Of a stretch of DNA of 35,925 bases, positions 12,761 to 15,495 are shown piece after piece. The notes under the pieces were generated by a model. It was not told the DNA's origin and did not search any database. It was given only the letters and a program-made list of their open reading frames with translations. Source of the stretch: Bacteroidales bacterium. GTDB taxonomy: Bacteria > Bacteroidota > Bacteroidia > Bacteroidales > VadinHA17. The stretch spans positions 1-35,925 of the forward strand of contig JALONU010000013.1 of the NCBI GenBank assembly GCA_025454775.1. The letters are read 5' to 3'. Position 1 is the first letter of the stretch; each line of letters opens with the position of its first letter. A program made the translations under genes and the position numbers.

Positions 12761-13147
12761 TCAGAATCCATCCTGCCACCTGTCGATACTCCTTCTCTCT
12801 TTCTTGGTGGGACGTCCTGTTCCCTTTCTCCTGTAGCCGGTCGTAACGGAACGGCTTATCTCAATCTTTTGCTTTTCGGATTCCGGGGTAAGGTCCTCAA
12901 GAAAACCGGGGACAAGCTTTGCGGAAACGCGGTTTTCGACCGGGAGCTTTATTCTGTATGTATAGTTTACAGGGGGTTTCTTTACCGTCAGCATTTCTCC
13001 GCCTTCGATCATCCTTGAAGGCTTGGTCGGCATATTATTCACAAGTATCCTTCCCATGCGGCATTCATCAGAGGCAATGCTTCTTGTTTTGAATAGCCTG
13101 ACGGCCCAGAGGAATTTATCGATCCTGACCTGAGTTATTTCAGTCAT
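12761..13147 (-). CDS. S4-domain RNA-binding protein, Hsp15/HslR-like
   Basis: The 128-residue protein carries an N-terminal S4 RNA-binding domain: RIDKFLWAVRLFKTRSIASD, then GRILVNNMPTKPSRMIEGGE. In E. coli, Hsp15 binds stalled 50S subunits that still carry peptidyl-tRNA. The basic C-terminal stretch (RRKGTGRPTKKERRSID) is typical of this group. The start codon overlaps the pth stop by four bases (ATGA), so the two are translationally coupled. That fits a shared role in clearing or recycling peptidyl-tRNA. Confidence 0.9.
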   Translation of the reverse strand: MTEITQVRIDKFLWAVRLFKTRSIASDECRMGRILVNNMPTKPSRMIEGGEMLTVKKPPVNYTYRIKLPVENRVSAKLVPGFLEDLTPESEKQKIEISRSVTTGYRRKGTGRPTKKERRSIDRWQDGF

Positions 13148-13743
13148 TTCCCTTCCTCTCCGCTGTTTTCTGTCATTTTGCCAGCCTTGTTAAAGGCTGT
13201 CATGGTCAGTTCCGTACCTGCTGTACCAAATGAAAGTATCATTTCGCTGACGGTAGGGATACTTTTGCTGAGTATCTTCTTTTCCTCCTCGTCCCATACG
13301 CTGAGAACGTAATCGACCTGTGATCCCTTTCTGAAGTTGCTGCCGATCCCTATCCGTATCCTTGCGTAGTTATCTGTACCGAGCGTGGAGATGATATGTG
13401 CGAGTCCGTTATGTCCCCCGGCGCCTCCCTTGGGTCTCATCCTGAAGCTCCCGAGCGGGAGTGCCAGATCATCGACAATGACAAGGAGGTTTTCAACGGG
13501 TATTTTTTCCTTTTGCAGCCAGTATCTTACGGCATTACCACTGAGGTTCATGAAGGTAGTTGGCTTGAGAAGGACAAATTCCCTTCCCTTATGCTTCAGG
13601 GAGCATACAAAGCCGTACCTCCTGTCCTTAAAAGAAGCATTGGATGTCCTGGCAAGGGCATCCAATACCGTGAATCCTATGTTGTGACGCGTGTCTGAGT
13701 ATTCGTCACCTGCGTTTCCCAGGCCAACTATCAGATATTTCAT
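13144..13743 (-). CDS. pth: Peptidyl-tRNA hydrolase
   Basis: Pth releases tRNA from peptidyl-tRNA that has dropped off the ribosome. The 199 residues begin MKYLIVGLGNAGDEYSDTRH, with the catalytic His20 and Asn10. TFMNLSG, the VIVDDLALPLGSFRMRPKGG segment and GGHNGLAHI are all canonical. Length is normal. It sits between rplY and the S4-domain gene in the order prs, rplY, pth, S4 protein, which I recall as conserved in Bacteroidota, and it overlaps the S4 gene by four bases. Confidence 0.97.
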   Translation of the reverse strand: MKYLIVGLGNAGDEYSDTRHNIGFTVLDALARTSNASFKDRRYGFVCSLKHKGREFVLLKPTTFMNLSGNAVRYWLQKEKIPVENLLVIVDDLALPLGSFRMRPKGGAGGHNGLAHIISTLGTDNYARIRIGIGSNFRKGSQVDYVLSVWDEEEKKILSKSIPTVSEMILSFGTAGTELTMTAFNKAGKMTENSGEEGK

Positions 13744-13770: not shown

Positions 13771-14460
13771 TTATTTTTTCTCCTTCTCTTTGTCCTTCTC
13801 TTTATCTTTTTCCTTACCCTTTTCCTCTGCAGGAGCAGCACCTTCAGCTCCTTCGGCAGCAGCGGCAGCGGCAGCGGCAGCTGCTTCAGCAGCTTCTTCC
13901 TCTTCTGTCTTGAGCGCGACACGTGAAGTAGTTACTGTGACTACGGTTGTAAATTTGGGCTCGATAAGTTCGATATTATCATATTTAAGTTCTCCCGCCT
14001 TTATTGAATGGGCGATTTTAAGCTCGGTAACATCAACCAACAGCTCCTCGGGAAGCTTGTCTGCCATACCTTTGACCTTAAGATGCCTTCTGTTGACGAT
14101 AAGCTTACCGCCGGCTTTTACTCCGACTGATTCACCTGTTACCGTCACCGGAATATCGATGATCACCGGCTTGTTCTCATGTATTTGAGTGAAATCGGCA
14201 TGTAGTATTCTGTCGGTTACAGGATGGAACTGCATATCATGGAGAACTGCATTATACTCCTGGTCTTCAAGGCTTATCTTCACGAGATGAGCTTCATGGG
14301 TATATACCAGGTTCTTAAAGCTCAGCTCGGGAGCGGTAAAATGGATGTTCTTTTCCTGTCCGTAAATAACGCAGGGAACTCCTCCTTCTTTTCTTACCTG
14401 TTTTGTGCTTCTTTTCCCAAGCTCATTCCGGAGACTTCCTCTGATTTCTATAGTCTTCAT
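13771..14460 (-). CDS. rplY: 50S ribosomal protein L25/general stress protein Ctc
   Basis: L25 of the Ctc/TL5 type binds loop E of 5S rRNA in the large subunit. The 229 residues comprise the L25 core (about 1-92, MKTIEIRGSLRNELGKRST), the beta-rich TL5 C-terminal domain (about 95-183) and a 45-residue tail. The tail starts with acidic and alanine-rich sequence containing ten consecutive Ala, then becomes alternating Lys-Glu/Lys-Asp repeats. It is encoded by short tandem repeats of GCN and KEKD codons. The gene is preceded by its own promoter inside the end of prs and by a 37-nt structured leader that resembles 5S loop E, which suggests autoregulation. Confidence 0.96.
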   Translation of the reverse strand: MKTIEIRGSLRNELGKRSTKQVRKEGGVPCVIYGQEKNIHFTAPELSFKNLVYTHEAHLVKISLEDQEYNAVLHDMQFHPVTDRILHADFTQIHENKPVIIDIPVTVTGESVGVKAGGKLIVNRRHLKVKGMADKLPEELLVDVTELKIAHSIKAGELKYDNIELIEPKFTTVVTVTTSRVALKTEEEEAAEAAAAAAAAAAEGAEGAAPAEEKGKEKDKEKDKEKEKK

Positions 14461-14475
14461 TCTTAATGGTTTTGT

Positions 14476-14512
14476 GTGCTACTAAATCCCGTGTAACGGG
14501 ACCCCATCGCAC
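14476..14512 (-). promoter_or_regulatory. Candidate rplY leader element resembling 5S rRNA loop E
   Basis: On the minus strand the leader folds as outer helix GTGC/GCAC (4 bp), internal loop GATGGGG opposite TTTAGTA (7x7), inner helix TCCCGT/ACGGGA (6 bp) and a TAC loop. Loop E of bacterial 5S rRNA is, from memory of E. coli, GATGGTA opposite GAGAGTA, also 7x7 and flanked by helices. Five of seven bases on one strand and four of seven on the other agree. All four pairs next to the outer helix are identical, and the other three become G-T oppositions. L25 binds loop E, and the element ends 15 bases before the rplY ATG. An autoregulatory decoy is therefore likely but untested. Confidence 0.6.
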
Positions 14513-14537: not shown

Positions 14538-14568
14538 CAAATATATATCAAAGGAATCAGAATACAAA
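14538..14568 (-). promoter_or_regulatory. rplY promoter inside the 3' end of prs
   Basis: On the minus strand TTTG (14568-14565) is followed after exactly 19 bases by TATATTTG (14545-14538), a full match to the Bacteroidota sigma consensus. The predicted start near 14531 gives a leader of about 70 bases containing the hairpin element. The -33 box lies in the last codons of prs. Confidence 0.8.
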
Positions 14569-15495
14569 ATTAATGCTGATGGACGAGTTTGTATTGACAG
14601 CCTGGATGGTGCTGGCGAATATTTCGGCGATTGAAAGGACCTTGATCTTTTCTGAGTGAACGCTGATAGGGATGGAATCTGTAACTACGAGCTCCTCAAT
14701 GGAGGATTTGTTGATTCTTTCCACTGCATTCCCCGACAATATGGGGTGTGTAGCGAAAGCCCTGATGCTTTTTGCGCCTCTTTCCTTCATCATTTCTGCG
14801 GCAAGGACCAATGTGCCTGCAGTGTCAACCATGTCGTCAACGATAACCACATTTCTGCCTTCCACCTCCCCGATTATCGACATTTCCTCGATTACATTGG
14901 GTTTTTTCCTGAGCTTATAGCAAAGAACCATTTCCGACTGGAGGTGCCTGGAATATGCGTTTGCCCTCTTTGATCCTCCCATGTCGGGTGCCGAGATTGT
15001 CAGGTTATCGAGATTAAGGTTGCTGATGTAGGGAGCAAAGAGTGCCGAGCTGTACAGGTGGTCGACCGGTACATTGAAGAAACCCTGTATCTGGTCGGCA
15101 TGCAGATCCATGGTTATTATCCTGTCCACCCCCGCTGCGCTGAGCAGGTCGGCGGTAAGCTTTGATCCGATGGATACCCTCGGCCTGTCCTTCCTGTCCT
15201 GGCGTGCATAGCCATAATAGGGGATGACGGCAATGACCTTGTAAGCGGAAGCCCTTTTTGCAGCATCGATCATCAGAAGGAGTTCAAGCAGGTTTTCTGC
15301 AGGAGGATTCGTTGACTGGACAATGAAGACCATATCGCCCCTGACGGATTCATCAAAGGAGGGCTGAAATTCGCCATCCGCAAACCTGGTTACAGAGCTT
15401 TTTCCCAGTTCCATCCCAAGCTGCTCCGCTATCTTAACGGATAACTGCCTGGAAGCCCTGCAGGAAAAGAGTTTCATAGGAGCTTTCCCGTACAT
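14557..15495 (-). CDS. prs: Ribose-phosphate pyrophosphokinase
   Basis: Prs makes phosphoribosyl pyrophosphate from ribose 5-phosphate and ATP for nucleotide, histidine and NAD synthesis. The 312-residue protein has VIPYYGYARQDRKDRPR (ATP site), MDLHADQIQGFF and the PRPP-binding loop VIVDDMVDTAGT. Length is typical. The start MYGKAPMKLFSCRAS aligns with family starts; an internal Met seven residues in is possible. A -7 box TAATTTTG lies upstream. rplY has its own promoter overlapping the prs 3' end, so prs and rplY can be expressed separately. Confidence 0.97.
   Translation of the reverse strand: MYGKAPMKLFSCRASRQLSVKIAEQLGMELGKSSVTRFADGEFQPSFDESVRGDMVFIVQSTNPPAENLLELLLMIDAAKRASAYKVIAVIPYYGYARQDRKDRPRVSIGSKLTADLLSAAGVDRIITMDLHADQIQGFFNVPVDHLYSSALFAPYISNLNLDNLTISAPDMGGSKRANAYSRHLQSEMVLCYKLRKKPNVIEEMSIIGEVEGRNVVIVDDMVDTAGTLVLAAEMMKERGAKSIRAFATHPILSGNAVERINKSSIEELVVTDSIPISVHSEKIKVLSIAEIFASTIQAVNTNSSISINFVF

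Follow-up and report, generated by a model that had tools for sequence, protein, structure and literature searches.

In the classical arrangement for feedback repression, an rRNA-like target of a ribosomal protein lies upstream of that protein's start codon. An mRNA segment that imitates 5S rRNA occurs in plants, where P5SM, part of the TFIIIA pre-mRNA, is recognised by a ribosomal protein that binds 5S rRNA; P5SM is eukaryotic, acts on splicing, involves a different protein and is unrelated to the leader described here. Among ribosomal protein leaders, those of uS8, uL1, bL20 and some of uS15 combine rRNA mimicry with autogenous repression, according to the accessible part of a review (PMC10931766). 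These leaders copy 16S or 23S sites, whereas the L25 leader copies a 5S site. The same part of that review reports that E. coli L25 represses its own translation via a leader hairpin, in competition with the 30S subunit, and confines the known L25 operator features to species with a short bL25 (PMC10931766).

Ribosomal protein leaders for L13, S4, S15 and S16 have been described in Bacteroidota, in the accessible part of a 2020 survey of new leaders (PMC7247131); they come from the same phylum and are the same kind of element as the L25 leader, but have other ligands. That part of the survey names an L25 leader for Enterobacteria and none for Bacteroidota (PMC7247131). Our search of the accessible literature found no Bacteroidota L25 leader either, which does not prove that none has been described. 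The L25 leader that we describe here, in which 5S rRNA loop E is copied in part, is new and widespread.

The closest described family is the Gammaproteobacterial L25 leader, RF03131, which is a different hairpin; the first-pass annotation had noted that L25 leader candidates had been proposed in Gammaproteobacteria. Both lie shortly upstream of rplY, but the RF03131 hairpin (26 nt; eight pairs, a one-by-one mismatch and two pairs) does not contain the GAUGG/GAGUA loop of the Bacteroidales leader. The E. coli rplY leader matched RF03131 at 46.9 bits, and neither of our covariance models (R1 and R2, below) matched the E. coli rplY locus. Conversely, RF03131 had no match in L064, L065, L036, L022 or the window (the whole 35,925-nt stretch of DNA that was analysed). 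The RF03131 features are said to go with a short, one-domain bL25 (PMC10931766), and the L25 encoded in the window is long (229 aa). No Rfam family reached its gathering score in the window; the 141-nt region gave three weak matches, all to lncRNA or sRNA families and none of them plausible. The E. coli leader was also considered as a loop-E mimic, on account of a faint GNUGG/GUA likeness; because Rfam draws a helix at that place, we do not claim it as one.

A hairpin upstream of rplY

As the first-pass annotation had proposed, a hairpin is present at 14476-14512 on the minus strand (GTGCGATGGGGTCCCGTTACACGGGATTTAGTAGCAC), ending 15 nt before the ATG of rplY (13771-14460, minus strand, as are all parts of the element given below). 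The rplY product is a bL25 (NCBIfam NF004132, 246 bits against a cut-off of 225) of the two-domain CTC type; it matches the long bL25/CTC family across residues 1-190, and also bL25 chains from solved ribosome structures. E. coli bL25 is the counterpart of the N-terminal domain of the long form, a domain that helps 5S binding, as stated in the accessible part of the review (PMC10931766). The C-terminus of the protein (13771-13860, minus strand) consists of an alanine run followed by a lysine- and glutamate-rich tail. The gene upstream is prs (14557-15495), and downstream lie pth (13144-13743) and an Hsp15-like gene (12761-13147) whose match, at 56 bits, is under the curated cut-off.

The outer helix, at the place of 5S helix V, is formed by a 5' arm GUGC (14509-14512) and a 3' arm GCAC (14476-14479), and relatives carry compensatory variants of it. 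Enclosed by it are the two strands of the loop-E copy, GAUGG (14504-14508) and UAGUA (14480-14484; GAGUA in most relatives), which correspond to 5S positions 72-76 and 100-104 in the numbering that we assume for 5S rRNA. Between these strands, at the place of 5S helix IV, is a variable inner stem-loop, GGUCCCGU-UAC-ACGGGAUU (14485-14503), and an A-rich spacer of 15 nt (14461-14475) separates the hairpin from the start codon. The helices are as first described, GTGC/GCAC and TCCCGT/ACGGGA. For the 37-nt element the folding energy is -16.6 kcal/mol (z = -3.74), a stability equalled by 1 of 200 shuffles, and the element is the sole R1 match in the genome (E 1.3e-6); the rplY leader hairpin is real, well beyond chance.

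The element accompanies rplY in the Bacteroidales

When 29 rplY loci from 31 genomes (the window's own included) were picked by the L25 protein alone, the hairpin pattern was found upstream of the ATG in 25, and this simple pattern found no hairpin in L021, L025, L028 or L029. A covariance model built from 22 sequences (R1, with matches accepted up to E 0.1) matched 107 of 295 genomes sampled from the order to which the window belongs, representing 73 of 183 genera, exactly once per genome. L25 was the next gene on the same strand after 106 of the 107 matches; the remaining match (G591) lies at a contig edge, and the rplY of that genome lies at the edge of another contig. The spacer between hairpin and start had a median of 15 nt in the 107 matches (10th-90th percentile, 13-19), and the length of the element ranged among leaders from 32 to 63 nt. 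Leaders are present in L064 (Marinilabiliaceae) and L065 (Bacteroidaceae).

Since rplY is present in 276 of the 295 genomes, 169 genomes with rplY were R1-negative, and the rplY loci of 80 of these were read. A second model built from 100 sequences (R2) matched 33 of the 80, all 8-31 nt upstream of the start and on the same strand, and had no match in the other 47. A separate scan for the module was positive at 28 of the 80 loci; its controls were positive in 21 of 18,700 windows after shuffling and in none of 905 windows taken downstream. In one of these 28, L161 (G488), the stretch directly upstream of rplY, at a contig end, looks like the 3' half of a 5S rRNA gene; Rfam made no call there. 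A mixed alignment (A5) of 12 true and 9 chance matches was left out of the counts, and a fold of a stretch of L268 that took in just half of the element was disregarded.

The large scans with R1 and R2 used strict filters. R1 matched 2 of 395 genomes in a phylum sample (the genome of the window and G377, which belong to the same order), in a scan that missed four further genomes of the order that R2 later found. R2 matched 10 of 295 genomes in a class sample, eight of them of the order, in a scan that missed even the window's own genome; two weak matches (E 0.07 and 0.095) had no L25 within 1.5 kb. Reading of 28 of the 57 class-level rplY matches outside the order revealed no element, and an R1 match outside the order, in L236 (15 nt, E 0.035), was discarded because it was not at rplY.

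Both helices covary

Because the loop letters are part of the models that select the matches, and because A3 and A4 are alignments fitted to the models, the figures for invariance and pairing given here and below are somewhat overstated. In 94 distinct leaders, 96.1% of cells were paired, versus 82.2% in shuffles, and cells with a double change numbered 165 versus 44.2. The covariation score was 0.426 versus 0.192 in shuffles, and sliding the partners by 1-3 columns destroyed the signal (score at most 0.123). Changes on both sides occurred at 10 of 13 pairs, where the shuffle mean was 8.2 and 5 of 500 shuffles equalled the observed number; within the inner helix, 8 of 9 model pairs had changes on both sides across the family. 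Among 33 loci outside both models, 98.5% of cells were paired and double changes occurred at 12 of 12 pairs. The outer helix is usually GUGY/RCAC but also occurs as UUG/CAA, GCG/CGC, AUG/CAU and GGG/CCC, and its GUG/CAC form is kept more strictly than pairing alone would require. On this comparative evidence, both helices are maintained by compensatory changes.

The pair adjacent to the loop is non-standard in 10 of the 94 distinct leaders, and in alignment A3 (columns 4/76) it has C opposite A in 10 of 100 leaders, a combination that a plain helix does not favour.

The internal loop copies part of 5S loop E

The conserved internal loop is a near-invariant 5x5 loop, RAUGG opposite DAGUA. Its 5' strand among the 107 order matches is GATGG in 77, AATGG in 29 and GATGA in one, and its 3' strand is GAGTA in 84, TAGTA in 15 and AAGTA in eight. 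The loop had originally been described as exactly 7x7, a claim that did not hold, since the next steps inward are real pairs: among 100 aligned leaders, the first is G-U in 95, G-C in three and A-U in two, and the second is A-U in 66, G-C in 24 and G-U in eight. The copy therefore comprises 72-76/100-104, five of the seven steps of loop E. Better founded were the four agreeing positions per strand (GATG and AGTA), which are as described, and the sequence of loop E that the first-pass annotation had given for E. coli: the organism's own 5S rRNA (G000:C30:9135-9244:-) has the same letters, GATGGTA opposite GAGAGTA. The window's leader agrees with this part of loop E at nine of ten letters, with U where 5S has G100; at this position the 107 matches have G in 84, U in 15 and A in eight.

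5S rRNA was located in 42 of 80 leader genomes, and loop E was read in 30 of these and in the organism's own 5S (by pattern in 30 of the 31 loci, and by eye in L223). All 31 read RAUGGUA/RAGAGUA; position 72 is G in 28 of them and A in three, so that leader and 5S agree at 72-76/100-104 even in the freedom between G and A at position 72. Loop E (within RF00001) and the leader's majority consensus share these ten letters, in the same strand order and with helices on both sides; the helices themselves are unrelated in sequence, and the leader has five of the seven steps. Of the full motif RAUGGUA/RAGAGUA, then, the leader contains 72-76/100-104, and its other two steps are pairs. Steps 77-78/98-99 are absent from the copy, but one family retains part of step 77/99. 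A99 is kept in G260, G381, G873, G424 and G268 of this family and in the Bacteroidaceae MAG L065; three of the six have it opposite U, the 5S arrangement, two opposite C and one opposite A. In the leaders of L260, L264 and L287 (also L263, L288 and L065), A99 is kept opposite U77, C or A, so that the mimic is nearly 6x6.

rRNA genes were scanned in three leader genomes (16S, 23S and 5S in L231 and L233; 23S and 5S in L232). On the rRNA strand of these genomes, the exact 5x5 module with at least three adjoining outer pairs occurred solely at 5S loop E, and other matches to the module had at most two outer pairs, in line with the reading first proposed, that the leader mimics the rRNA target of L25. 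R2 does not recognise 5S rRNA (best E 0.33 across 34 rRNA loci). The crystallised L25-5S fragment (1DFU) includes loop E, as stated in PMC8793689.

Some rplY loci carry divergent forms. In the leaders of L148, L154 and L277 the 3' loop strand is AGGUA instead of GAGUA, and the remaining hairpin is intact. Those of L160 and L169 have a 5' strand GUGAUGUGG or GUAAUGUGG opposite UUAGUARCAC; R2 still recognises this form, which is either shifted or extended. L177, L187 and L266 have GAGUACC upstream of rplY with no clear RAUGG partner, possibly a diverged element.

The first-pass annotation had offered to give up its idea if neither the helices nor the GATGG/AGTA loop were conserved upstream of rplY in related genomes. 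That check was run and the idea survived it: the helices covary, the loop is near-invariant and the element travels with rplY.

A promoter-like box precedes the leader

Upstream of the hairpin in the window are a likely -7 box (TATATTTG, 14538-14545), 25 nt from the hairpin, and a possible -33 box (TTTG, 14565-14568) within the 3' end of prs, which by eye seems conserved in loci of the same genus; both follow motifs that we take to be of the Bacteroidota type. A TAnnTTTG box occurs within 90 nt upstream of the hairpin in 104 of the 107 matches, compared with 1331 of 21,400 shuffled controls and 31 of 945 windows taken downstream.

The first hairpin pattern had left 39 loci blank, three of which were later R2-positive. 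In 22 of the 39, by reading, the prs stop codon lies just 20-51 nt upstream of rplY, which leaves too little room for a promoter and a leader. Similarly close spacing (10-56 nt, by reading) was found in at least 18 of the 28 class-level loci outside the order. From the contrast between the close spacing to prs at leaderless loci and the box at 104 of 107 leaders, we infer that the leader came together with rplY's own promoter.

Proposed mechanism and alternative explanations

An autogenous ribosomal protein leader is expected to be conserved in RNA structure ahead of the coding sequence, as this element is. It also has the frequent though not required likeness to the protein's rRNA site, here to part of loop E only. 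We consider it highly likely, from these sequence patterns, that the hairpin is a cis-acting autogenous leader in which L25, bound to the partial loop-E copy, keeps its own mRNA from being translated. rplY would be transcribed from its own promoter, with the -7 box 25 nt upstream of the hairpin, and the RNA would display the helix-V-side part of loop E (72-76/100-104) between two helices in the strand order of 5S. L25 in excess over free 5S rRNA would bind this copy; the bound hairpin, about 15 nt upstream of the AUG and within reach of the initiating 30S subunit, would then lower rplY translation, probably by translational repression rather than by decay. Fresh 5S rRNA would presumably compete for L25 and reclaim it, lifting the repression. 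Bacteroidia start translation without Shine-Dalgarno pairing, as described in the accessible part of a further source (PMC9976891); because of this and of the short spacer, a protein-clamped hairpin would be expected to hinder initiation.

The same conservation would be seen if L25 bound the leader but acted through mRNA decay or transcription elongation instead of 30S access. We regard this as unlikely, since the 75-nt leader folds without a terminator-like stem and U-run, and the short, narrowly distributed spacer to the AUG points to initiation. Less likely still is that the ligand is not L25 but another ribosomal protein, an sRNA or some other factor, and that the likeness to loop E is coincidental. 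That just a part of loop E is copied, and that the outer helix is conserved in sequence as well, would fit such a ligand; however, the ten majority loop letters are those of the 5S stretch, one of 2520 arrangements at fixed composition (by arithmetic), 5S alone among the rRNA genes searched fits with at least three outer pairs, and rplY itself codes for a protein that binds 5S rRNA.

Two further explanations are very improbable. A conserved upstream ORF could start at the AUG of the loop and stop at the UAR of AGUARCAC, which is always a stop triplet (TAA in 60 and TAG in 47 of 107) because R is always A or G, but we rejected this reading because the frame is not kept across the 107 leaders (the distance from AUG to UAR modulo 3 is 0, 2 and 1 in 44, 35 and 28) and because the stems covary as RNA. 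Equally, the inverted repeat lies between prs and rplY, where a DNA operator palindrome or a prs terminator hairpin might be found, but its G-U pairs, freely varying inner stem, length of 32 to 63 nt, asymmetric near-invariant loop, position between a promoter-like box and the adjacent AUG, and lack of a T-run after the hairpin on the sense strand all speak against both.

Significance

If L25 binds the leader as proposed, long bL25 would have a leader of its own, whereas the known operator features are tied to the short form; the element would be an example of 5S rRNA mimicry in a bacterial leader and would add a new RNA family for annotation. Because many natural helices surround one nearly fixed loop, the alignment of leaders resembles the outcome of a selection for those features of loop E that L25 requires. 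On balance we favour, with some reserve, the broader view that this widespread Bacteroidales RNA reveals a minimal, helix-V-side loop E that suffices for CTC-type L25, that it arose within this order where rplY gained a promoter and left the prs transcript, and that it makes L25 synthesis depend directly on how much 5S rRNA is supplied. In many Bacteroidota, as judged from sequence, surplus L25 can very probably bind its own message and so reduce its own production.
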